A DNA stretch of 34,546 bases from a virus. Within the stretch, counting starts at the first letter, position 1. Every line of letters begins with the position of its first letter. The stretch is from IMG/VR virus record IMGVR_UViG_3300029267_002091, positions 1-34,546 of that record; one strand, written 5' to 3'. The position numbers were made by a program, and so were the translations under genes. A model generated the notes under the pieces. The model was not told the DNA's origin and ran no database searches. It saw only the letters and a list, made by a program, of their open reading frames with translations. Of the stretch, positions 3,051-29,790 are shown one piece after another.

Positions 3051-3080
3051 GAGCAATCAATTACAGTTGACAACACCAAT

Positions 3081-3112
3081 CCCACGTGTTAGTTTACGTG
3101 GGGTTTTTTTTT
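3081..3112 (+). terminator. Rho-independent terminator
   Basis: CCCACGT (3081-3087) pairs with ACGTGGG (3096-3102) across an 8-nt loop and is followed by nine T residues. It ends the 2038-3050 operon before the primase gene. Confidence 0.85.
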
Positions 3113-3126
3113 GTTAGGATTTTGAC

Positions 3127-4131
3127 ATGCTGAATGAATGGCTAGAACGGAAATATATCATGCTGCTGAGCAGTTCACTGCCGCTGTTTGTCGAAAAGGG
3201 TGATAATGTCTACAATTTTCGATGTGTGTTGTGCGGAGATTCCGAAAAAAATACAGCAAAGGCCAGAGGCTATTTGATCGAGAAGCAGGGCAAGTTCTAC
3301 TCATATTGTCACAATTGTCACGCTTCCATGCCATTCGACAAATTCCTTGAACACGTCAATCCAATCCTCTACAAGCAATATCTCGAAGAAAGGTTCATAG
3401 ACACGCCAAGGCGCAATGTGAGCAAATCACAACCATTGCGTGTGGAGAAGGAGATTGACAGTCTCGGTATACCTAGTGTAATGTGGTTGGATGTGAACCA
3501 TCCAGCCAGACAGTATATCGCAAAGCGCGGGATACCTGTTCGTTGGTATTCGCGCCTTTTTTATGCTGAGAACTTCAACGAATTCGCGAACACACATGTG
3601 AAGGAGAAATATGATCCGAGCCGAGCAGAACCACGAATTGTGATACCGTTCAGATCGCGTTCTGGAAAATTGTTGGGTTTTCAAGGAAGATCGCTCGATC
3701 CAAATGCCAGTATGCGATACATAACAGCATTGTTATCACCGGATAATCCTAAATTGTTCAACATGGATTTGGTCGATTTGAACATCAGGAATTATGCATT
3801 GGAAGGTCCGTTTGATGCTATGATGTTAAAGAATGCGTTTGCTGCGTGTGGAAGTTCGATCTTGTCTGAAATTCGAAAGGCCGAATTGAATACGTCGAAC
3901 ACTGTCATTGTGTATGACAATGAACCAAGAAATCGCGACATTGTGCGTTCACTGCATGCAGCAATCAAGGCTGATTTCTCTGTTGTTATTTGGCCAAAAA
4001 GAATTGAACAGAAGGATGTCAATGACATGGTGTTGAGCGGCGTTGTTGACATCGAAGCTGTGTTATCACAGCATACATATAAAGGCTTGGAAGCCGAGTC
4101 AGAGTTTGGGTTGTGGAAGAAAATAGCTTGA
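3127..4131 (+). CDS. DNA primase, T4 gp61 type
   Basis: 334 residues, near the length of T4 gp61 (about 340). An N-terminal zinc-binding domain has CVLC (33-36) and CHNC (61-64). The catalytic TOPRIM part follows: IVIPFRSRSGKLLGFQGRSL (about 171-190), the acidic EGPFD at 226-230 and the metal-binding VYDNEPRNRD at 262-271, then KDVNDM at 296-301. It would make RNA primers for lagging-strand synthesis with the phage helicase, which is not in this window. It starts a new transcription unit after the terminator and is followed 12 nt later by mazG. Confidence 0.88.
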   Translation: MLNEWLERKYIMLLSSSLPLFVEKGDNVYNFRCVLCGDSEKNTAKARGYLIEKQGKFYSYCHNCHASMPFDKFLEHVNPILYKQYLEERFIDTPRRNVSKSQPLRVEKEIDSLGIPSVMWLDVNHPARQYIAKRGIPVRWYSRLFYAENFNEFANTHVKEKYDPSRAEPRIVIPFRSRSGKLLGFQGRSLDPNASMRYITALLSPDNPKLFNMDLVDLNIRNYALEGPFDAMMLKNAFAACGSSILSEIRKAELNTSNTVIVYDNEPRNRDIVRSLHAAIKADFSVVIWPKRIEQKDVNDMVLSGVVDIEAVLSQHTYKGLEAESEFGLWKKIA

Positions 4132-4143
4132 AAGGAAAACGTA

Positions 4144-4515
4144 ATGACCAATTTTCAGAAAGTGCGAGAATTCATGCTGGCGTTTGGACATGGTGCGCCG
4201 GAAAAATATACTGAGTTGACAATGGAACAATTGGACTTGCGATTGCGTCTCATTGAAGAAGAATTGAACGAAGTAGAAGAAGCCATGCTTGAAAATGAGC
4301 CAGTCAATATAGCAAAGGAATTGACTGATCTGTTGTATGTGGTCTATGGAACTGCTGCTGCATATGGAATAGAAATCGACGAGTGTTTCGATGCGGTACA
4401 CAAGTCAAACATGAGCAAATTGAATGCAGACGGAAAGCCTTCTTATCGTGAAGACGGTAAAATCCTAAAGGGCGATCTGTACAAACCAGCCGATTTGACA
4501 GACATCGTGAAATGA
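4144..4515 (+). CDS. mazG: MazG-like nucleotide pyrophosphohydrolase
   Basis: 123 residues. The all-alpha NTP-pyrophosphatase signature is present: RLIEEELNEVEEAML carries the first E-x-x-E pair and IAKELTDLLYVVYGTAAAYG the second E/D pair, followed by the family's VHKSNMSKLNADGKP segment with K, N and S. Such enzymes hydrolyse (d)NTPs to monophosphates; in phages they are thought to tune nucleotide or alarmone pools. The ribosome-binding site AAGGAAAA precedes the ATG. It opens the nucleotide-metabolism theme continued by thyX, RNR and glutaredoxin. The first member of the tiny-gene array begins 12 bases after its stop. Confidence 0.88.
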   Translation: MTNFQKVREFMLAFGHGAPEKYTELTMEQLDLRLRLIEEELNEVEEAMLENEPVNIAKELTDLLYVVYGTAAAYGIEIDECFDAVHKSNMSKLNADGKPSYREDGKILKGDLYKPADLTDIVK

Positions 4516-4526
4516 GGAAATTTGCA

Positions 4527-4709
4527 ATGGTCGATGCATTGTTGGATGAACATGTCAGATGGGCAACGCATAAGGAATGTATTGATTGTTGTTCTGTAAG
4601 CACACGATTGTTGGTCGGGAGGTCTGTTAGATGGGAAGTTGAGTGGGCTGTCACGTTTAGCGTTTGGCGAAAGGCCAGGATGCAATTGAAGGAAGATCAT
4701 TATGATTGA
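4527..4709 (+). CDS. Array A member 1, divergent
   Basis: 60 residues from the ATG at 4527, chosen because GAGGAAAT lies just upstream; an in-frame ATG at 4512 overlaps the mazG stop but lacks a site. It has no clean tetrads. The last third is W/V-rich (SVRWEVEWAVTFSVWRKARM) and ends in the family motif QLKEDHYD, whose bases contain GAAGGAAG and the next start codon. Three cysteines (ECIDCC) are unusual for the family. It overlaps the next gene by 8 nt. Confidence 0.65.
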   Translation: MVDALLDEHVRWATHKECIDCCSVSTRLLVGRSVRWEVEWAVTFSVWRKARMQLKEDHYD

Positions 4710-4860
4710 AATGAATATCTGGCGGACATTCACGTGGCAAGTCTGGGGCCAAATAGGACGGCAAATTGGCGGTAAAGTCAGGCGGAAAACCAGCAAGAGA
4801 ATAGGACATCAAACTGTACGGCAAATACAGGGGCAATTGATGGAAGATTGCAATGAATAA
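4702..4860 (+). CDS. Array A member 2
   Basis: 52 residues, the shortest member. Tetrads are recognisable but degraded (TWQVWGQIGRQIGGKV, then GHQTVRQIQGQL). It ends in MEDCNE encoded by the junction element, and overlaps the next gene by 8 nt. Too short for many ORF callers; support comes from the ribosome-binding site GAAGGAAG 8 nt upstream, the conserved junctions on both sides and the shared phase. Confidence 0.65.
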   Translation: MIEMNIWRTFTWQVWGQIGRQIGGKVRRKTSKRIGHQTVRQIQGQLMEDCNE

Positions 4861-5056
4861 CGAAAGAGTTGAAGACGTTTGGTTGCAAGTTGATTTACAA
4901 ATCTTGCAGCAAATCAAGCGACAAGCGTGGGATCAAACCGAAGAGCAATCCTGGGATCAAGTATGGGATCAAGTCGAGAATCAAGTATGGGATCAAGTCT
5001 ATCAGCATCGGTTTCATTTTAAAGAGCAATTGAGAGGTGATTTTGATGAACAGTAA
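4853..5056 (+). CDS. Array A member 3, tetrad-repeat peptide
   Basis: 67 residues. After a variable head (MNNERVEDVW) come about ten x-x-Q-V/I/A tetrads, for example WDQVWDQVENQVWDQV, then HFKEQLRGDFDEQ. The pattern predicts one long helix with a hydrophobic residue every four positions. It overlaps the next gene by 11 nt, and the junction AATTGAGAGGTGATTTTGATG gives its C-terminus. Confidence 0.72.
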   Translation: MNNERVEDVWLQVDLQILQQIKRQAWDQTEEQSWDQVWDQVENQVWDQVYQHRFHFKEQLRGDFDEQ

Positions 5057-5261
5057 AAGAATTGAAAATATTTGGTTGCAAGTTGATCTACAAATCTGGC
5101 AGCAAGTCAGGACGCAAGTATGGGATCAAGCCGAAGAGCAAGTCGAGAAGCAAGTATGGGATCAAGCCGAAGATCAAGTCTGGCGGCAAGCTGATCGGCA
5201 AATCTGGCGGCACGTTTTGAGGCAATTGAGGTATGATTGCAATGAACGGCAAAAGAATTGA
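5046..5261 (+). CDS. Array A member 4, tetrad-repeat peptide
   Basis: 71 residues from the ATG at 5046 (ribosome-binding site GAGAGGTG); an in-frame GTG at 5037 lies inside that site and is less likely. About a dozen uninterrupted tetrads run from LQV to LRQL (for example WRQADRQIWRHVLRQL). It ends RYDCNERQKN and overlaps the next gene by 20 nt. Its last 70 bases belong to a 93-nt block repeated exactly 196 nt downstream. Confidence 0.72.
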   Translation: MNSKRIENIWLQVDLQIWQQVRTQVWDQAEEQVEKQVWDQAEDQVWRQADRQIWRHVLRQLRYDCNERQKN

Positions 5262-5480
5262 AAATGTTTGGTTTCGAATTGATCAACAAATCTACCGAGA
5301 AGGCAGGACGCAAATCTGGCAGCAAGTCGAAGAGCAAGTCAGGTGTCAAGTTTGGGATCAAGTCGAGAAGCAAGTATGGGATCAAGTTGATCGGCAAATC
5401 TGGCGGCACGTTTTGAGGCAATTGAGGTATGATTGCAATGAACGGCAAAAGAATTGAAAATGTTTGGTTTCGAATTGATC
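5192..5480 (+). repeat. 93-nt exact direct repeat in array A
   Basis: Bases 5192-5284 and 5388-5480 are identical and 196 nt apart. Each block spans the end of one array gene, the junction and the head of the next, so the repeated unit is one whole gene step. It indicates a recent unequal-recombination or slippage event. Confidence 0.9.
5242..5457 (+). CDS. Array A member 5, near copy of member 4
   Basis: 71 residues; head MNGKRIENVWFRID, about twelve tetrads (WQQVEEQVRCQVWDQV), and a C-terminus identical to member 4 from DRQIWRHVLRQL onward. The ATG at 5242 keeps the same spacing to the ribosome-binding site as other members; the in-frame ATG at 5233 lies within the junction element. It overlaps the next gene by 20 nt. 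Confidence 0.72.
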   Translation: MNGKRIENVWFRIDQQIYREGRTQIWQQVEEQVRCQVWDQVEKQVWDQVDRQIWRHVLRQLRYDCNERQKN

Positions 5481-5644
5481 GACGAATCTTGCAGCAAATC
5501 AAGCGACAAGCGTGGGATCAAACCGAAGAGCAAGTCAGGTGTCAAGTTTGGGATCAAGTCGAGAAGCAAGTATGGATGCAAGTTGATCGACAAGTCAGGT
5601 TTCACGCTAGACAGCAATTGAGAGGTGATTTTGATGAAAATTGA
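5438..5644 (+). CDS. Array A member 6, tetrad-repeat peptide
   Basis: 68 residues. Its head is identical to member 5 (MNGKRIENVWFRID), then ILQQIKRQAWDQTEEQV matches member 3, so it looks like a mosaic of neighbours. It ends RQQLRGDFDEN. It overlaps the next gene by 11 nt. The mosaic structure suggests recombination within the array. Confidence 0.72.
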   Translation: MNGKRIENVWFRIDRRILQQIKRQAWDQTEEQVRCQVWDQVEKQVWMQVDRQVRFHARQQLRGDFDEN

Positions 5645-5819
5645 TCATCTAGTTCAGCAGATAATTATGTGGCAAGTTGTGCGAGAAGTCGAGCAGCACG
5701 TCGAGCGACAAGTCGAAGAGCAAGTCGAGAAGCAAGTGTGGGATCAAGCCGGGGAGCAAGTCTGGCTGCAATTCAGGTTTCACGTTAGGCAGCAATTGAG
5801 AGGTGCTTTTGATGCATGA
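5634..5819 (+). CDS. Array A member 7, tetrad-repeat peptide
   Basis: 61 residues; tetrads WQVVREVEQHVERQVEEQV then EKQVWDQAGEQVWLQ, ending RQQLRGAFDA. Charged E/R tetrads replace most W tetrads here. Ribosome-binding site GAGAGGTG; it overlaps the next gene by 8 nt. Confidence 0.7.
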   Translation: MKIDHLVQQIIMWQVVREVEQHVERQVEEQVEKQVWDQAGEQVWLQFRFHVRQQLRGAFDA

Positions 5820-6000
5820 AGATCAATGTTGGCAAATTAAGCAAGTTGGGACGCAAGTTCTTATGGAAATTTTTTCTCGAACCGTGCGGCATGTTGAATG
5901 GCAACTCTGGCAGCAAATCAAACAGAAGCTTGATGATCGATTGTGGGCGCAACAGGGAGGGGGTGCAGAGATGCAATTGAAGGATGATTGGCGTGATTAG
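5812..6000 (+). CDS. Array A member 8, divergent
   Basis: 62 residues. It opens MHEDQCWQIKQVGTQVLM, has a few tetrads (VEWQLWQQIKQKL) and a GGG insertion near the end before MQLKDDWRD. The junction element is AATTGAAGGATGATTGGCGTG, so the next start is probably GTG. 8-nt overlap. Confidence 0.65.
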   Translation: MHEDQCWQIKQVGTQVLMEIFSRTVRHVEWQLWQQIKQKLDDRLWAQQGGGAEMQLKDDWRD

Positions 6001-6187
6001 GCATCAAGTCTGGCGGCAAGTCAGGGATCAAATCGAATACCAAAGCTGGAATCAAAGTTCGGATCAAACCAGAATGCAAATTAGGATGCAAATCTTGGAG
6101 CAAATCAATTGGAAATTCTGGGATCAAAACGATCAGCAAGTTTGGGATCAAAATTGGTCGCAACTGAAAGATGATTATCATGAATGA
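5993..6187 (+). CDS. Array A member 9, GTG start
   Basis: 64 residues. The GTG at 5993 keeps the usual spacing to AAGGA; an in-frame ATG at 5984 lies inside the junction element. Tetrads HQVWRQVRDQIEYQSW, then TRMQIRMQILEQIN, ending NWSQLKDDYHE. If ATG were used the product would gain three residues. 8-nt overlap. Confidence 0.68.
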   Translation: MIRHQVWRQVRDQIEYQSWNQSSDQTRMQIRMQILEQINWKFWDQNDQQVWDQNWSQLKDDYHE

Positions 6188-6347
6188 ACAACGGATCGAA
6201 CAACAGATTGATTGGCAAGTCTTTGGATCAATCCTGAAAATCGAGCATCAAGTCAAACAGTTCGTTTGGTGGCATGTCAGAAATGAAGTCTGGTGGCAAG
6301 TCAAGTGTCAAAATTGGTCGCAACTGAAAGATGATTATCATGAATGA
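6180..6347 (+). CDS. Array A member 10
   Basis: 55 residues; MNEQRIEQQIDWQVFGSILK then WWHVRNEVWWQVKCQ, ending NWSQLKDDYHE. The last 12 residues and the junction bases are nearly identical to those of member 9, indicating a recent copy. 8-nt overlap with the next gene (ATGAATGA). Confidence 0.65.
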   Translation: MNEQRIEQQIDWQVFGSILKIEHQVKQFVWWHVRNEVWWQVKCQNWSQLKDDYHE

Positions 6348-6528
6348 ACGACAATGCAATGAGCAAGTTTGGTGGCAGGTAATGATGTGCGTAGATCGGT
6401 GCGTCGGGGATCAGACCTTGCGGCAAGTCAATCAACAAGTCTGGGGTCAAGTTTGGGATCAAGTCTGGATGCAACTCAAGTGGCAAGTTGATGGGCAACT
6501 GAAAGACGATTATCATGAAGATTACTGA
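6340..6528 (+). CDS. Array A member 11, tetrad-repeat peptide
   Basis: 62 residues; head MNERQCNEQVWWQVMMCVDR and about six clean tetrads RQVNQQVWGQVWDQVWMQL, ending DGQLKDDYHEDY. The ATG at 6340 is preferred over an in-frame ATG at 6331 because of ribosome-binding-site spacing. 14-nt overlap. Confidence 0.7.
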   Translation: MNERQCNEQVWWQVMMCVDRCVGDQTLRQVNQQVWGQVWDQVWMQLKWQVDGQLKDDYHEDY

Positions 6529-6703
6529 TATAAACAAAACGTTTTGGGCGAATGCATGCGCAAAAACCTGGGAGTATATTGATAGAGATATTCGATATCT
6601 TGTTGGCGAAGTTGTCTGGTTGAGAGCGGATGGACGTGTTTGGTGGCGGCAAGTTGGGCGGCATGAAGTGGATCAATTGAAAGAGGATTATCATGAGGAT
6701 TGA
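6515..6703 (+). CDS. Array A member 12, non-tetrad subtype
   Basis: 62 residues. Few Q tetrads; the core is YIDRDIRYLVGEVVWLRADG then RVWWRQVGRHEVDQL, ending KEDYHED. It is clearly paralogous to member 14 (6859-7038) with member 13 between them, which implies duplication of a two-gene unit. 11-nt overlap. Confidence 0.68.
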   Translation: MKITDINKTFWANACAKTWEYIDRDIRYLVGEVVWLRADGRVWWRQVGRHEVDQLKEDYHED

Positions 6704-6869
6704 TATTGAAGTTGAGAAGAAAGTTGAAACTCCAATATGGAATATGATGGTGGACAATATTAATAGCGCAGTTTATGTGCCGGTTTGGTGGGACATTTTA
6801 GAAAACACGAGACTACAAGCCGACAAACAAGCGCGTCAACAAGCGAGAGAAGATTTTCATGCATCTTGA
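6693..6869 (+). CDS. Array A member 13, non-tetrad subtype
   Basis: 58 residues: MRIDIEVEKKVETPIWNMM, then VYVPVWWDILENTR and QADKQARQQAREDFHAS. The C-terminal QAREDF is shared with the last array member (7580-7747). The junction element is AAGCGAGAGAAGATTTTCATG. 11-nt overlap. Confidence 0.62.
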   Translation: MRIDIEVEKKVETPIWNMMVDNINSAVYVPVWWDILENTRLQADKQARQQAREDFHAS

Positions 6870-7038
6870 TATCGACAGAACATTTTTGGTTGTGTTCAAC
6901 GCAAAAGTCTGGAAGTGTATTGATAAAGATATTCGATATATTGTTAGAGAATTTGTCTGGTGGAGAGCGGATGGGCGTGTTTGGTGGCATGTCGGGCGGC
7001 AAGAAGTGGATCAATTGAAAGAGGATTATCATGAATGA
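6859..7038 (+). CDS. Array A member 14, paralogue of member 12
   Basis: 59 residues; CIDKDIRYIVREFVWWRADG and RVWWHVGRQEVDQLKEDYHE match member 12 closely, while the first 15 residues differ. 8-nt overlap with the next gene. Confidence 0.66.
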   Translation: MHLDIDRTFLVVFNAKVWKCIDKDIRYIVREFVWWRADGRVWWHVGRQEVDQLKEDYHE

Positions 7039-7225
7039 AGAGCAAATCTACGATCCGGTTTATGAGCAATTCTGGCTGTATGTCGGACATCATATCAATC
7101 GGCAAATCGGGCAGCAACTATGGCAACAAGCCCAAGTGCAAGTCTGGCGGCAAGTCTATCGGCAAGTCGAAGAGCAATGCAATTTGAAAGTTGTTCATCA
7201 AGTTATGGATGATTATCATGATTAA
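7031..7225 (+). CDS. Array A member 15, tetrad-repeat peptide
   Basis: 64 residues; MNEEQIYDPVYEQFWLYVGH then NRQIGQQLWQQAQVQVWRQV, ending HQVMDDYHD. Paralogous to member 17 (shared MNEEQ, FWLYV and WxQVYRQVxEQ). The junction changes here to GTTATGGATGATTATCATG. 8-nt overlap. Confidence 0.7.
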   Translation: MNEEQIYDPVYEQFWLYVGHHINRQIGQQLWQQAQVQVWRQVYRQVEEQCNLKVVHQVMDDYHD

Positions 7226-7400
7226 ACACCGAATCCACTATCGAATCTATGAGCAAGTCTATGAGACATCCAGAAACCAATTAAGTATACAACTCAAGCG
7301 GCAAGTATGGAATATAGTAGAATGGGAACAGGTGCAGGATGTTTATTTGCGTGTTGGGTGGCAAACTAAGCAGCAAGTTATGGATGATTATCATGAATGA
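7218..7400 (+). CDS. Array A member 16
   Basis: 60 residues; MIKHRIHYRIYEQVYETSRN, QLKRQVWNIVEWEQV and a C-terminal VGWQTKQQVMDDYHE. Only scattered tetrads. The ATG at 7218 matches the junction element; longer in-frame starts would run through the preceding gene. 8-nt overlap. Confidence 0.66.
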   Translation: MIKHRIHYRIYEQVYETSRNQLSIQLKRQVWNIVEWEQVQDVYLRVGWQTKQQVMDDYHE

Positions 7401-7593
7401 AGAGCAAATGAATAATCAAGTCGGGCGGAAAATTGATCAGCAACTCTGGGATCAACTCAATGATCAATTCTGGCTGTATGTCGAACGTCATATCAATTGG
7501 CAAGTCTGGTGGCAAGTCTATCGACAAGTCGATGAGCAAGTCTGGCGGGATGCCAGGAAGCAAGTTATGGATGATTATCATGACAATATGTAG
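7393..7593 (+). CDS. Array A member 17, tetrad-repeat peptide
   Basis: 66 residues; DQQLWDQLNDQFWLYVERHI then NWQVWWQVYRQVDEQVWRD, ending RKQVMDDYHDNM. Paralogue of member 15. 14-nt overlap with the last member. Confidence 0.7.
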   Translation: MNEEQMNNQVGRKIDQQLWDQLNDQFWLYVERHINWQVWWQVYRQVDEQVWRDARKQVMDDYHDNM

Positions 7594-7747
7594 CAAAGTT
7601 GGGTCGATTAGATTCCTGTCTGCATTGCAAGCCGTACGTATCAACATAGCAGTCAGATGGCAACTCAGGAAAGCTATAAACGCTAATATGAATTTCGAAA
7701 AACACTTCATAAGTCAGGCGAGGGAAGATTTTAAAAAAGGTGCTTGA
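7580..7747 (+). CDS. Array A member 18, terminal member
   Basis: 55 residues: MTICSKVGSIRFLSALQAVR, NIAVRWQLRKAINANMNFEK and a tail FISQAREDFKKGA. It retains the REDF motif, but no start codon follows (GAAGATTTTAAAAAAGG), so the coupled series ends here. A promoter and a new transcription unit follow. Confidence 0.62.
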   Translation: MTICSKVGSIRFLSALQAVRINIAVRWQLRKAINANMNFEKHFISQAREDFKKGA

Positions 7748-7895: not shown

Positions 7896-8786
7896 ATGCC
7901 TGAGAAAATCGAGAGCATGACACCTGAACAGGAAGCACAAATTCCTGGTTGGACTGAGAAATGGGTGAAGATTGGTCTTTCCACTGAACCCGTGGATTTC
8001 GAGTACGCAAAAGAGCGTGTTCTGAAAATTTACGACATCATCGAGCGTCCGCGCCCAACTGTGCTTTTTGCAGACTCCCCGTTTGCAGCAATCAAGATGG
8101 GCCTGGAACATCAGCTTGGCCGTGAGCCAACAAAACAAGAATGTTACGATGGGATTTCGAAGCTGTATTGCGGTTCTTCGCAAGTTTCTTCGTGCGCTTA
8201 TATCACCTTCTTCCGTGACGTTCTCAATTGGGAGAACGAAACGCTCGCAAACTTCAAGGTTTTTGAAGAACTCTGTTCTGCCTGTGACAACGTGTGGTGG
8301 GAAGAGGATGTTGCTGTGATTGTCAATCGTCCCGAATTCATCAAACTCGATGACGAAGGGCGGCAACACAGTGAAGAAGGACCTTCGCTGCGTTATCGCG
8401 ATGGTTGGACTGTTTGTTGTTGGCATGGCACGCGTGTACCGCGTGAATGGCTGATGACGCCGAAAAGCCAACTCGATCCGCGTATCGCGTTGACGTGGGA
8501 AGACATCGAACAGCGCCGGTGTTTTTCTGAAATCGTTGGGTGGGAAAGCGTTCTCAACCAACTTGATGCCAAGGTCATCCATCAGGATGATGATCCTGAG
8601 ATCGGCACTCTGCTTGAAGTCGATCTCCCTGACGTTGGAACCGAAAGGTTCTTGCGTGTGAAGTGTGGGACTGGACGATTTTTTGCCATTCCCGTGCCGC
8701 CTGATGTCAATACTGCCATGGAAGCGCAAGCGAGCACATGGGGTATCGATGTCAACGAGTTTGTCAAACCAGAAGTGAGGACGTAA
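7896..8786 (+). CDS. DUF6745-like protein
   Basis: 296 residues. The C-terminal half matches what I recall of DUF6745: EGPSLRYRDGWTVCCWHGTR (161-180) then VP, an I-x-Q-R-R segment (204-208) before FSEIVGW, and a C-terminal region with VDLPDVGTERFLRVKCGTGR. The N-terminal part has RPRPTVLFADSPFAA (51-65), corresponding to the family's DSP motif. Function is unknown. Members from other bacteria often carry, as I recall, a low-complexity four-residue repeat after the DSP motif; here that place (about 70-128) holds ordinary sequence, while free-standing four-residue-repeat peptides are encoded in arrays on both sides. Codon use looks more GC-rich and regular than the arrays, suggesting strong expression from its own promoter. 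Confidence 0.75.
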   Translation: MPEKIESMTPEQEAQIPGWTEKWVKIGLSTEPVDFEYAKERVLKIYDIIERPRPTVLFADSPFAAIKMGLEHQLGREPTKQECYDGISKLYCGSSQVSSCAYITFFRDVLNWENETLANFKVFEELCSACDNVWWEEDVAVIVNRPEFIKLDDEGRQHSEEGPSLRYRDGWTVCCWHGTRVPREWLMTPKSQLDPRIALTWEDIEQRRCFSEIVGWESVLNQLDAKVIHQDDDPEIGTLLEVDLPDVGTERFLRVKCGTGRFFAIPVPPDVNTAMEAQASTWGIDVNEFVKPEVRT

Positions 8787-8787
8787 T

Positions 8788-9129
8788 ATGAGAACTTTCA
8801 AGAAAATCGCTGCTCAGGGTGATGTGATGATCATGCGTGTGGACAGCTTCGACCGAAGCAATCTGAAAGAGGTTGCGCCGGAAGGGAACCACCTGATTGT
8901 CACGCACTCTGAAACCGGGCACCACCACGTGCTGGATCGTAATGATGCAAGCATGTTCGAAAACCCGGACAACGAACTTGAAGCGTTTCTGACGCTTCAT
9001 CGCGCGAGTGAGCTTACTCACCTTCGCGACTATGATACACACGAATCTCTGCTCCTTGAGCCGGGTGACTACAGAATCATCCGTCAGCGCGAGTACACGC
9101 CAGAAGGCTATCGTCGCGTTCAGGACTAG
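8788..9129 (+). CDS. Small partner protein of the DUF6745-like gene
   Basis: 113 residues, starting 1 nt after the preceding stop. It opens FKKIAAQGDVMIMRVDSFDR, then LIVTHSETGHHHVLDR with a histidine cluster, and ends GDYRIIRQREYTPEGYRRVQD without its last residues here. This QGDVxxxRV...SETGHxHxL...GxYxxxRQREYTP pattern belongs to a short protein I recall next to DUF6745 genes in other genomes. A small beta-barrel is likely, and the histidines (about 45-47) could bind metal. Function is unknown. The operon ends at the strong terminator at 9159. Confidence 0.75.
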   Translation: MRTFKKIAAQGDVMIMRVDSFDRSNLKEVAPEGNHLIVTHSETGHHHVLDRNDASMFENPDNELEAFLTLHRASELTHLRDYDTHESLLLEPGDYRIIRQREYTPEGYRRVQD

Positions 9130-9158: not shown

Positions 9159-9192
9159 AACCGGCGTGGGGAAACCTACGCCGGTTTTTTTT
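9159..9192 (+). terminator. Strong rho-independent terminator
   Basis: A stem of about 12 bp (AACCGGCGT with ACGCCGGTT, extended by GG/CC) is closed by a GAAA tetraloop and followed by eight T. It ends the DUF6745 operon, so array B is presumably transcribed by readthrough or from a promoter not recognised here. Confidence 0.92.
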
Positions 9193-9211: not shown

Positions 9212-9397
9212 ATGGTCGGTGCTAAGGATTCTGCATTGCATCATATTGATGCGTCGAGATTGAATGTTTCGTGTCATGTATCTCGTAATATTTACATGGA
9301 AGTGTTTGTGAGAATACAAAGCAAGGGTAGGAGACGAATAGAAGAAATAAAGCAGTGGCAATATTGGCGTCAATTGGTGGATGATTTTGATGAATAA
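9212..9397 (+). CDS. Array B member 1, divergent
   Basis: 61 residues from the ATG at 9212; no clear ribosome-binding site, so the start is uncertain (TTG at 9206 and an internal ATG are alternatives). No tetrads in the first 45 residues; it ends IKQWQYWRQLVDDFDE. Like member 1 of array A, it is the most divergent, with the family motif only at the C-terminus. 8-nt overlap. Confidence 0.55.
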   Translation: MVGAKDSALHHIDASRLNVSCHVSRNIYMEVFVRIQSKGRRRIEEIKQWQYWRQLVDDFDE

Positions 9398-9584
9398 AAT
9401 AAAAATCGTTGATCAAGTCGGGCAGCAAGGGTTTTCTTCTATCGATGCGCAATGTCTGGAAAACGTTCGTCAGAAAGTCTTGGGGCAAGTATATGATCAA
9501 GTTGTGTGGCAACTCTGGCAGAAAGTTAATCGGCAACGCTGGCAGCAAGGCTATTTTCAACTTTGGAAGGATTTTGATGGATAA
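9390..9584 (+). CDS. Array B member 2, tetrad-repeat peptide
   Basis: 64 residues; NVRQKVLGQVYDQVVWQLWQ then KVNRQRWQQGYFQLWKDFDG. Preceded by GGTGGATGATTTTGATG. 8-nt overlap with the next gene. Confidence 0.68.
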   Translation: MNKIKIVDQVGQQGFSSIDAQCLENVRQKVLGQVYDQVVWQLWQKVNRQRWQQGYFQLWKDFDG

Positions 9585-9768
9585 CGCGAGAATTGATATA
9601 CAAATCGGATGGCAAGTCAGAGAGAAAGTCTTGCGGCAAGTCAGGCGGAAATTCGATCAGCAAGTCTGGCGGCAAATTGATCAGCAAGTATGGTGGCAAG
9701 TTGGGGATCGAGTTTGGTTGAAAGCCAAGCGGCAAGCTATGGATGATTATGATGGAATTGATATATAA
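9577..9768 (+). CDS. Array B member 3, tetrad-repeat peptide
   Basis: 63 residues; about ten tetrads from WQVREKVLRQVRRKFDQQVW through RQIDQQVWWQVGDRVW, ending KRQAMDDYDGIDI. Ribosome-binding site GGAAGGAT. The 17-nt overlap with the next gene is the longest in array B. Confidence 0.7.
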   Translation: MDNARIDIQIGWQVREKVLRQVRRKFDQQVWRQIDQQVWWQVGDRVWLKAKRQAMDDYDGIDI

Positions 9769-9925
9769 AACATTCGGATGCGGCGCACATCAAGTCTGGA
9801 ATAAAGTTGCTTGGTTAGTCAATCTGAAAGTAGATCAGGAAGTTAATCAGAAAGTCTGGCGGCAAGTCAATAAGCAAGCCAATCAGCAAGTCTTCTGGCA
9901 AATCATGGATGATTATGATGTATAA
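9752..9925 (+). CDS. Array B member 4, tetrad-repeat peptide
   Basis: 57 residues; head MELIYKTFGCGAHQVW, then NLKVDQEVNQKVWRQVNKQA and NQQVFWQIMDDYDV. 8-nt overlap with the next gene (ATGTATAA). Confidence 0.68.
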   Translation: MELIYKTFGCGAHQVWNKVAWLVNLKVDQEVNQKVWRQVNKQANQQVFWQIMDDYDV

Positions 9926-10097
9926 CGTAAAATCATTCTTGGTTCAAATCGATCAGCAAGTCGATCAGAAAGTTTTGGAGCAAGTATATGATCAAGTTGT
10001 GTGGCAAGTCTGGCGGCAAATCTGGCGGCAAGTCAATCAGCAAATCTTATGGCAAGTTATGGAGGATTGTGATGGATGGGATGAAAATTGTCGGTGA
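9918..10097 (+). CDS. Array B member 5, terminal member
   Basis: 59 residues; MYNVKSFLVQIDQQVDQKVL, EQVYDQVVWQVWRQIWRQV and an extended C-terminus after MEDCDG (WDENCR). The segment LEQVYDQVVWQ recurs in member 2. The following gene lies in a different relative phase, so the array pattern stops here. Confidence 0.68.
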   Translation: MYNVKSFLVQIDQQVDQKVLEQVYDQVVWQVWRQIWRQVNQQILWQVMEDCDGWDENCR

Positions 10098-13375: not shown

Positions 13376-13498
13376 TTATTCTTCGAGAAGTTGTTCACTC
13401 TCTTTGAGTTGTTTGGAACACTTCTTGCACATCTTAACTGTTGGTGCAAAAACTTTGTGGCAAACCGGGCAAACCCAACCATTGTTGTCATCAGGCAT
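13376..13498 (-). CDS. Small zinc-ribbon protein
   Basis: 40 residues on the minus strand, ATG at 13498. Two CxxC pairs (CPVC at 10-13 and CKKC at 24-27) form a likely zinc ribbon; the tail is charged (SKQLKESEQLLEE). AGGAGAG lies upstream on the coding strand. It overlaps the 3' end of the FkbM gene by 8 nt and is the last gene of the minus-strand operon. Confidence 0.65.
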   Translation of the reverse strand: MPDDNNGWVCPVCHKVFAPTVKMCKKCSKQLKESEQLLEE

Positions 13499-14144
13499 TC
13501 TGTACTCTCCTGTAAATGAAATCTGCTTTTGAGGCACCAGTCATTTGATATCCCATAGAACCAAGCATTTTGGTAATATCAGCGTTGTTTCCTTCTGTAA
13601 CAACAACTGGTGAATGCTCTTCAATAGTATTTAGAGCACCGGAAATGATCTGTGGCTCGTAGCCTTCGGTATCAAGCTGAATGAGATTGCATTCAGGAAG
13701 ATTGAGAGAATCGATGGTCATTACTGGTATGATGCCACCATGTCTTTCGGTGACTTTGTGCATGCCAGCGTTTTCTATGTCATTGCTTGGATCGATAGTA
13801 CACCATCCAGAAGTGGCACCAAGAGCAGCCCGAAAAAAGAAAACGTTGTGTGCTAAATTGTTGCGAACCAACGCATGAAAATTGATATGGTCTGGTTCGA
13901 ATACATACACTCTTTTGAAGAGGGTTGAATATGCTCTGGTATACAAACCCATGTTTCCACCAGCAGTAACAACAACATTTTTCTGCTCGATTGGTTCTAC
14001 GTATTTTTCATAGTGAGATGTATTCCAATCTTTCAACGGACCTTCCCAAGCACCAGTATCCTGTCGCAACCAACACCATTTATCGCCATTGGAACCTTTC
14101 AATTCTGCGATGCGTTCTTCATACATGTTTTCTTCATTGATCAT
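13491..14144 (-). CDS. FkbM family methyltransferase
   Basis: 217 residues. The SAM-binding motif is VVVTAGGNMGLYTRAY followed by VYVFEPDHINFHALVRNN, and the family's later motif is LIQLDTEGYEPQIISGALNT. FkbM-type enzymes O-methylate sugars or small molecules. In a phage it could modify virion glycans or a host surface polysaccharide, possibly together with the GT4 glycosyltransferase at 16426. It is on the minus strand, opposite to nearly all other genes of the window. Confidence 0.85.
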   Translation of the reverse strand: MINEENMYEERIAELKGSNGDKWCWLRQDTGAWEGPLKDWNTSHYEKYVEPIEQKNVVVTAGGNMGLYTRAYSTLFKRVYVFEPDHINFHALVRNNLAHNVFFFRAALGATSGWCTIDPSNDIENAGMHKVTERHGGIIPVMTIDSLNLPECNLIQLDTEGYEPQIISGALNTIEEHSPVVVTEGNNADITKMLGSMGYQMTGASKADFIYRRVQNA

Positions 14145-27844: not shown

Positions 27845-28249
27845 ATGAAAGCGATGCCATACGTTGGAAAGCACGCAATGTTGGATTTGCGATGGGAGCC
27901 TGATTTGAATGCGGTATGCTTTGCTAACAACTCATCAATTCTCATGAATGCTATGGAACGCGCTGTTCTTGATGAAGGCGCTACGATCCTGGCGAGATCG
28001 GTGAACGATTTTCCCGGCGAGAATTCTGATTTTGGTGGGTTTACTGGAATGTTGGTGCTGTCTGAAAGCCATGCATCAGTCCATACGTGGCCAGAATACA
28101 GTTTAGCAACTCTGGATGTATATATGTGCGGATCGTGTGATGCGTTTGAATGCATTCAGAAAATTGTCAACTATCTAGGAGAAGCAGGTTATGCCCCGAC
28201 GCACAAGTTTCAAACGAAAATATATCGAGGATTTCACCACGCAATATAA
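27845..28249 (+). CDS. speD: S-adenosylmethionine decarboxylase
   Basis: 134 residues, in the range of bacterial class 1b SpeD. SESHASVHTWPEY (73-85) contains the autocleavage site between Glu74 and Ser75, where the serine becomes the pyruvoyl group; His80 and Cys95 (DVYMCG) are the other catalytic positions. It makes decarboxylated SAM for spermidine synthesis. No spermidine synthase is visible here, so it may feed the host pathway. AAGG lies upstream. A different-frame gene starts within its 3' end. Confidence 0.88.
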   Translation: MKAMPYVGKHAMLDLRWEPDLNAVCFANNSSILMNAMERAVLDEGATILARSVNDFPGENSDFGGFTGMLVLSESHASVHTWPEYSLATLDVYMCGSCDAFECIQKIVNYLGEAGYAPTHKFQTKIYRGFHHAI

Positions 28250-28457: not shown

Positions 28458-28759
28458 GCAGGACGAATGACGAATGTTTGCTGGAAATGATGTATGCATT
28501 GCAGCAAAAATCGCTTTATGTTCAACGGGTTACAGCACCGCCTGGAAGCAGGGAAACCTTTTATTATCAGGTTATTGACTCTAACCAACCGTTCGAATAT
28601 TCGATGCATGCTGCTGAGTTTCTATCGCAATTTTGCCATGGCTGTGAGGCTACAGAGGAAGAATTGTGCGAAAACGAGGCAGTCATTCGTACCTACAGAA
28701 AATTCAACCATATGCAATATGATGTTGATTGCGCAGTCAGAGGATTGGGATACAAATAA
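28454..28759 (+). CDS. Protein of unknown function
   Basis: 101 residues; LLEMMYALQQKSLYVQRVTA, then ETFYYQVIDSNQPFEYSMHA and three cysteines (CHGC and LCEN). Coupled to both neighbours by short overlaps. Not recognised. Confidence 0.58.
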   Translation: MSRTNDECLLEMMYALQQKSLYVQRVTAPPGSRETFYYQVIDSNQPFEYSMHAAEFLSQFCHGCEATEEELCENEAVIRTYRKFNHMQYDVDCAVRGLGYK

Positions 28760-29790
28760 TGTTCACACATGATAGTTATGCAAACCACGAAAAAGTCTTT
28801 ATGTTCAATGGGTTGGGCGGACGACTGCAAGGCATGATTGCCATTCATGATACGACGCTAGGACCAGCGGTTGGCGGTTGTCGTTTCATGCATTATGAGC
28901 ATCCAAACGATGCATTGCGAGACGTTCTACGGCTGTCACATGGCATGACATACAAATGTGCTGCTGCTGATCTTCCATTGGGAGGCGGAAAAAGTGTAAT
29001 ACTTTCAAACACTTGGGACGGAAAGGATCGAAAGGAACTTTTCGAGTGTTTTGGTGAACATGTTAATCAGTTGGCTGGGCAATATTACACTGCTGTTGAT
29101 TTTGGCACAACGCTTGGTGACATGCGTGCTGTGTCTCGAACTAGCGAATATGTTTGCGGTGTTGCTACTCCAATTCTGGAAAGCACTGCACGCGGTGCAT
29201 TCAATGCAATTCTTGCGGTTGCTGAATTTAATGGCTGGGATTTGACACAAAAAAGTATTGCAATTCAAGGACTTGGTAAAACTGGCTATGCTTTGGCGAG
29301 AATGCTTCGCAAGGCTGGTATTGGCGAAATGTTCATTTCTGATATTACGTTTGATGACGATATGCCTAATCTCGGACAGACAATGGCCGTTGAGTTGGAT
29401 GCAACCGTTGTTCATTCATCTGAAATTCTCTCAACGGAATGTGATGTTTTGGCTCCTTGTGCCATTGGTGGAGTGCTGACAAATTTCGCAGTATCGAAGT
29501 TGCATTGCAAGGCAGTATGCGGAATAGCAAATAATCAACTCGTTGACGACGAATTGGCTAACATATTGAAAAGAAAGGATATTTTGTATATTCCAGATTT
29601 CATTGCAAACGCTGGTGGCGTCATTGCAGCAGCCAATTATGTCACGAAGCAGGATCATACGCGCGAGATTGACAATATCAAACATCGCGTGCTATCGATA
29701 CTTGAAGCAAGCGCAGTGACCGATAAAACGCCATTGCATGTTGCTAAGAGCCGCGTCGAGGCAAAGCTGAATTTAGCAAAGGCGACATAG
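28759..29790 (+). CDS. Leucine-dehydrogenase-like amino-acid dehydrogenase
   Basis: 343 residues from the ATG at 28759. Motifs of Glu/Leu/Phe/Val dehydrogenases: GPAVGGCRF (35-43), MTYKCAAADLPLGGGKSVI with Lys66 and catalytic Lys78, DFGTTLGDM with Asp121, the NAD-binding IQGLGKTG (169-176), and the late APCAIGGVL and FIANAGGVI. Length and motifs fit leucine/valine dehydrogenase (about 360) rather than glutamate dehydrogenase (about 420). It would deaminate branched-chain or related amino acids with NAD+. It is complete and not obviously degraded, which is unusual for a phage. Its TAG shares its last base with tRNA-Thr. Confidence 0.88.
   Translation: MFTHDSYANHEKVFMFNGLGGRLQGMIAIHDTTLGPAVGGCRFMHYEHPNDALRDVLRLSHGMTYKCAAADLPLGGGKSVILSNTWDGKDRKELFECFGEHVNQLAGQYYTAVDFGTTLGDMRAVSRTSEYVCGVATPILESTARGAFNAILAVAEFNGWDLTQKSIAIQGLGKTGYALARMLRKAGIGEMFISDITFDDDMPNLGQTMAVELDATVVHSSEILSTECDVLAPCAIGGVLTNFAVSKLHCKAVCGIANNQLVDDELANILKRKDILYIPDFIANAGGVIAAANYVTKQDHTREIDNIKHRVLSILEASAVTDKTPLHVAKSRVEAKLNLAKAT

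Follow-up and report, generated by a model that had tools for sequence, protein, structure and literature searches.

Chained Tiny Genes in a Viral Genome Share the Four-Residue Repeat of Phage DUF6745 Proteins

Introduction

Pentapeptide-repeat proteins of the MfpA/Qnr type consist of short repeats in which a core residue stays constant and the outward-facing positions vary; their period is five, their pattern is A(D/N)LXX, and they fold as a beta-helix. In diversity-generating retroelements, variation within a phage protein is restricted to certain codon positions. The SPO1 host-takeover module contains many small early tandem genes, which are unrelated to each other. The locus described here resembles each of these systems in part. 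It lies in a 34,546-nucleotide virus record (IMG/VR IMGVR_UViG_3300029267_002091), the whole of which is referred to as the window, and consists of two arrays of tiny, chained open reading frames (ORFs) that carry a four-residue repeat, or tetrad. Unlike the small-gene clusters of the SPO1 type, the window genes form one repeat family with coupled starts. The pentapeptide repeat was rejected as their identity, the period being four, the predicted structure an alpha-helix, and no Pfam match to that family appearing among the 10 members scanned. Compared with diversity-generating retroelements, the variation here spans dozens of repeat units. A retroelement was likewise rejected, as no reverse transcriptase was found in the window, in its sister record or in 21 of the 22 contigs tested, the exception being a 369-kb record (L269).

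The closest relatives are proteins of the Pfam family DUF6745 (PF20530) with internal tetrads, which have in common with the window the repeat itself and a gene neighbourhood including a partner gene that resembles PHROG 27831. There the tetrads are a domain of one protein, whereas the window has 23 separate tiny genes and a DUF6745 gene devoid of tetrads. Comparison shows the tiny ORFs to be, as judged from their sequences, a free-standing, in-trans version of the DUF6745 repeat domain. The tiny genes probably encode interchangeable, hypervariable, helical subunits that are supplied in trans to a DUF6745 module. The DUF6745 and PHROG families are catalogued as function-unknown, and neither DUF6745, PF20530 nor the tetrad repeat is named in any open-access paper found, the subscription literature lying outside the search. 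The original prediction, made from the window alone, knew of no described phage gene family of such architecture, and no description was found in the open-access literature either.

Layout of the Arrays

Array A occupies positions 4527-7747 of the plus strand and contains 18 chained ORFs (A1-A18) of 52-71 codons each. Neighbouring ORFs overlap by 8-20 nt throughout, and together they total 3405 nt within a span of 3221 nt. The original prediction had described 18 tandem, overlapping ORFs in this interval, and its lengths are exact. In dinucleotide shuffles (n=200) the longest ORF chain was 4, and in shuffles of 12-nt blocks (n=200) it was 3, against 18 in the window. The chain exists on the plus strand only, the maximum on the minus strand being 2. 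Array B adds five further chained ORFs (B1-B5) at 9212-10097 on the plus strand, giving 23 members in all. Both arrays are complete in virus record L035, which is 99.8% identical to the window. The members are as follows.

4527-4709, plus strand, A1
4702-4860, plus strand, A2
4853-5056, plus strand, A3
5046-5261, plus strand, A4
5242-5457, plus strand, A5
5438-5644, plus strand, A6
5634-5819, plus strand, A7
5812-6000, plus strand, A8
5993-6187, plus strand, A9, GTG start
6180-6347, plus strand, A10
6340-6528, plus strand, A11
6515-6703, plus strand, A12
6693-6869, plus strand, A13
6859-7038, plus strand, A14
7031-7225, plus strand, A15
7218-7400, plus strand, A16
7393-7593, plus strand, A17
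7580-7747, plus strand, A18
9212-9397, plus strand, B1, start uncertain
9390-9584, plus strand, B2
9577-9768, plus strand, B3
9752-9925, plus strand, B4
9918-10097, plus strand, B5

The repeat has a period of 4 residues, or 12 nt, with a constant core of two residues and variation at the other positions. This pattern is present in the window members, being weak or absent in A1, A12, A14, A18 and B1. An alignment of the 23 together proved too diverse to serve in a profile scan. Because 12-nt repeats keep long stretches open in several frames and on both strands, ORF length alone proves little, and the case for the array rests instead on the chain of start and stop junctions and on comparative data.

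Coupling of Successive Genes

The last codons of each array member are also the ribosome-binding site and the start codon of the next gene. The C-terminal motif (QLKEDYHE and similar) serves in this manner in caattgaaaGAGGAttatcATGaatga, and one junction reads as follows.

7016-7038, plus strand, junction; the last codons of A14 supply A15 with its ribosome-binding site (aaaGAGGAttatc) and its ATG, with a stop/start overlap of 8 nt

Among the 17 later starts of array A, 16 are ATG and 1 is GTG. All are preceded, at normal distance, by a purine-rich and mostly Shine-Dalgarno-like stretch, which is weaker at A10, A11, A12 and A14. The common C-terminal motif noted in the original prediction is present, but it is mainly a translation-initiation element, so that the likeness is explained largely at the level of the DNA. 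Other phages differ in this respect, their C-termini reading DDIQ, DDRL, REQTK, EDLENE or NDLTK, and there too the next start is encoded within them. The close junctions of other viral loci (n=110) include 61 with the classical 4-nt ATGA overlap and 21 of the 8-nt type seen in the window. The ORFs are thus seen to be chained with coupled start signals; they would be read as one polycistronic, translationally coupled series, and their peptides are presumably translated.

The Tetrad Repeat within DUF6745 Proteins

The tetrad of the tiny ORFs (QVxx; also QLxx, SSLx and AATx) is found within a larger phage protein that Pfam names DUF6745. In the Mycobacterium prophage prophiGD102-1 and in phage MW202476 the DUF6745 and partner genes stand side by side, and the DUF6745 protein bears 45 QLxx tetrads in the former and 27 SSLx tetrads in the latter. 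Both runs occupy the point where the window DUF6745 has none. Additionally, bacterial genome contigs hold QVxx runs within DUF6745 proteins, several of these proteins being encoded next to the partner gene or to genes of phage type. The window counterparts of the two genes are the following.

7896-8786, plus strand, DUF6745 (PF20530) protein of 296 aa without internal tetrads, Pfam E 1.6e-22
8788-9129, plus strand, partner protein of 113 aa, PHROG 27831-like (...HSETGHHHV...RQREYTPEGYRRVQD)

The first scores 80.3 bits against the PF20530 profile (cut-off 27), is the sole match to DUF6745 in the window and sits between arrays A and B. The partner gene adjoins DUF6745 in 47 of 65 non-redundant loci. 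The original prediction was right to see a variable family of small proteins, but it missed their kinship to the DUF6745 tetrad segment and the tetrad-less gene between the arrays.

The tiny ORFs themselves resemble only the internal repeat of DUF6745, and PF20530 matched none of the 10 members scanned. DUF4816 (PF16086) was rejected for them, as the best member reached 18.5 bits, below the curated cut-off of 29.4. Searches of PHROGs, NCBIfam and PADLOC with the tiny ORFs returned nothing useful. Other cores (SSLx, AATx, SATx, GAVG, AVxx) occur in the fused DUF6745 proteins of L180:5998-7275 (MW202476), L358, L360, L370, L383, L392 and L395, and there too the variable position is filled by the same chemical types of residue. 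Some of these cores might stem from a change of frame in a single DNA repeat.

Fused and Free Forms among Phages

IMG/VR contains QV tetrads in at least 120 stretches, which fall into two classes, with either one large DUF6745 protein containing internal tetrads (fused) or several small free-standing tetrad ORFs (free). The latter amount to 197 distinct ORFs with a median of 68 aa, mostly in overlapping chains, from 81 viral loci; 59 of these loci have at least two and 29 at least four. Some loci are near-identical strains or overlapping parts of a single contig, which lowers the number of independent phages. The free-peptide version is widespread among environmental phages. The proposal that these small proteins make up a genuine and variable family is supported, and arrays of the same kind, which the original prediction had named as a test, occur in many other phages. 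Such ORFs are short enough for routine gene callers to miss. In wider terms, a hypervariable four-residue repeat is present in many phages, forming either part of a single protein or a set of many tiny coupled genes.

The relation between the two forms was assessed in 80 viral DUF6745 loci picked by the conserved domain motif, blind to tetrads, with flanks of about 6 kb and with many records being fragments. Here 35 loci were fused, 29 had a tetrad-less DUF6745 with free ORFs, 16 had neither and none had both. The non-redundant set gave 33 fused, 19 free, 13 neither and 0 both (Fisher p 2.8e-8). Tetrads are therefore fused or free, and as far as sequence can tell the two states exclude each other among the loci examined. 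An association with free ORFs in 16 of 17 cases from tetrad-selected loci was not used as evidence, the tetrad-blind set taking its place.

Free ORFs often directly flank a tetrad-less DUF6745. In the reverse direction, DUF6745 was found in 16 of 33 array contigs and in 0 of 33 control contigs, 19 of these controls having chance pattern matches only (p 2.7e-6). The DUF6745 ORFs of array phages are without clear tetrads; 15 of the 16 have 0-2 matches attributable to chance, and the remaining one has five divergent ones. The partner gene follows the same distribution: it was present in 15/15 tested array contigs with DUF6745, in 0/11 without it and in 0/10 controls.

Two single records deserve mention. 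Contig L108, binned as Flavobacteriaceae, has two free tetrad ORFs on opposite strands (1720-1908 and 3257-3457) near a terminase-looking gene. In the jumbo-sized L269, the record with the reverse transcriptase, tetrad ORFs of up to 198 aa surround the DUF6745 gene.

Coding Evidence

Among the window paralogs there is no excess of change at third codon positions, and dN/dS is near 1. An argument for coding from dN/dS was dropped, since it shows no constraint. The original prediction had held that an absence of coding constraint would speak against its reading; the window paralogs indeed lack the third-position signal, but different phages encode the same Q-V core with different codons, which supports coding. 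As the paralogs reveal no purifying constraint, the coding claim rests on the junctions, the in-frame fused homologs, the core residues kept by different codons and the interruption of the other frames: a stop interrupts the +1 frame in 194 of the 197 free ORFs and the +2 frame in 190.

These data also bear on the view that the repeats are maintained as DNA or RNA, as a 12-nt site for binding, recombination or RNA structure, with the frames incidental. The absent third-position excess would fit that view, and so would the near identity of the 12-nt unit at synonymous positions within a locus, whatever the codon use of the genome. It is nevertheless very improbable. The core words differ by locus (CAAGTC, CAGGTC, CAGGTT, CAAGTG, CAAGTA, plus other cores) independently of codon use, so that the residue pattern is conserved and the DNA word is not; the tetrads lie in frame within a conserved protein, the alternative frames are interrupted as stated, and every unit has its start and stop junction. 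Because the words differ between loci without following codon use, the tetrad units are taken to be homogenised within a locus while the residues persist between loci.

Variation of the Repeat

The variation was measured in 64 fused arrays with 1876 units. Mean nucleotide diversity was 0.32 at the first and second bases of the two variable codons per 12-nt unit, 0.039 at third bases and 0.025 at the first and second bases of the core. The first and second bases of the variable codons were more diverse than third bases in all 64 arrays. Hypervariability is thus limited to set positions. An extreme case is L376, where 29/29 units equal GnTCAGGTCnGG, with two variable bases only. That all 64 arrays, whose nucleotide words differ, confine their variation to amino-acid-changing positions suggests that diversifying selection is strong.

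At the most variable position the residues are G (25%), R (25%), W (17%), D (7%), E (7%) and Y (5%). Variable codons ending in G give W, R, E and G, and those ending in C or T give Y, R, D and G or A. Lineages with different codon endings therefore differ in residues, while their chemical choices are the same.

Records L343, L345, L346, L348 and L349, whose DUF6745 domains are 100% identical, differ in their free ORFs, of which some have been gained, lost or fused in frame. The pair L370/L377 has C-terminal domains 98.9% identical and unrelated tetrad strings. For free ORFs beside a DUF6745 of 89% identity, the agreement in variable residues, or letters, is 28.6% with the positional counterpart and 26.5% with an unrelated phage. 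Such turnover would also be expected if the arrays were functionless, a selfish or neutral amplification of an unstable repeat derived from DUF6745. Repeats readily expand and recombine, array content differs between near-identical strains, and the dN/dS of the window fits neutrality. We consider this quite unlikely, because starts, ribosome-binding sites and frame are preserved across many loci and the fused repeat is absent where free copies are present. Additionally, adjacent letters in fused arrays are no more alike than shuffled ones (0.285 vs 0.296), which unit-by-unit slippage would not give.

The Proposed DUF6745 Module and Its Possible Use

The proposed subunits would be short, mostly helical proteins built of the four-residue repeat. 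The tetrad core (Q-V, Q-L, S-L or A-T) forms a constant scaffold, and one or two positions per tetrad bear a variable letter, mainly aromatic, positive, negative or small. The array peptides may serve as exchangeable variable subunits that join the adjacent DUF6745 protein, which has no tetrads, and the 113-aa partner. The comparisons show that arrays change through in-frame recombination and replacement at variable positions, and since they do so, the letter string would set what the module binds.

Several observations weigh against this reading. Of the 26 array contigs tested, 11 show neither DUF6745 nor the partner, although records may be incomplete, and arrays may not always need these two proteins. 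L222 (102,602 bases) has seven free tetrad ORFs and no detectable DUF6745 or partner. Conversely, in the 16 tetrad-less DUF6745 loci with neither form, the flanking 6 kb or so contain no free tetrad ORF; the contig of at least one of them bears free ORFs further off (L374, the contig of L233). Five window members hardly show the repeat, and the near-neutral pattern among the paralogs counts here as well. The structural models lend limited help. AlphaFold2 predicts A5 as a single continuous helix over residues 2-70 (pLDDT 92), which is weak support given a repetitive sequence and a pTM of 0.44. In a fused protein (L216), the end domains are confident (mean pLDDT 85 overall) and the tetrads are of low confidence. 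A fold search of the Protein Data Bank (PDB) with this fused model found no relative (best E 0.27), and PDB sequence searches found none.

The contigs without DUF6745 are what one would expect if the array proteins were independent small early effectors, for example inhibitors of host defence, with only ancestry and an accessory region in common with the DUF6745 repeat. The heads differ between members, tetrads are lost in some, and DUF6745 can occur without tetrads, all of which agrees with independence. The strict either-or of fused and free (0/80 with both) does not, nor does the direct adjoining of free ORFs to tetrad-less DUF6745 in many unrelated phages, and we judge such independence unlikely.

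With interchangeable subunits of the DUF6745 module as the preferred reading, the use might be to recognise a variable component of the host or of a rival phage in early infection, a suggestion offered with little confidence. The original prediction had raised multimer formation and counter-defence; the peptides may form multimers, and counter-defence would be one plausible use of the module. PADLOC anti-phage defence profiles did not match DUF6745 or the partner, and gave the tetrads only weak low-complexity matches. A further step, possible but rather doubtful, is a combinatorial recognition system in which a constant DUF6745 core and partner would take up any of many small helical letter-string peptides, diversified by recombination and fixed-codon change. 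If this were true, one phage would gain a repertoire of binding specificities without reverse transcriptase. The fused arrays, with their confined variation, represent a natural series for probing what is recognised.

Other Features of the Window

Two further features border the locus.

4144-4515, plus strand, MazG/PRA-PH-like pyrophosphohydrolase gene directly upstream of array A, its stop overlapping the ribosome-binding site of A1
9159-9186, plus strand, intrinsic terminator separating array B from the partner gene, with a 12-pair stem followed by a T-run

Strong intrinsic terminators at 3078-3105 and 9159-9186 bracket a unit spanning the primase gene, array A, DUF6745 and the partner, array B being a separate unit. 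The genes of the 34.5-kb window are typical of tailed phages and include PhoH, ThyX, class II ribonucleotide reductase, Toprim primase, MazG-like and AAA ATPase genes. An FkbM-type methyltransferase gene (13491-14144, minus strand) is opposed in orientation to its neighbours. Additionally, the window encodes an S-adenosylmethionine decarboxylase (27845-28249) and a Glu/Leu/Phe/Val dehydrogenase (28729-29790), metabolic genes that are unusual in a phage.

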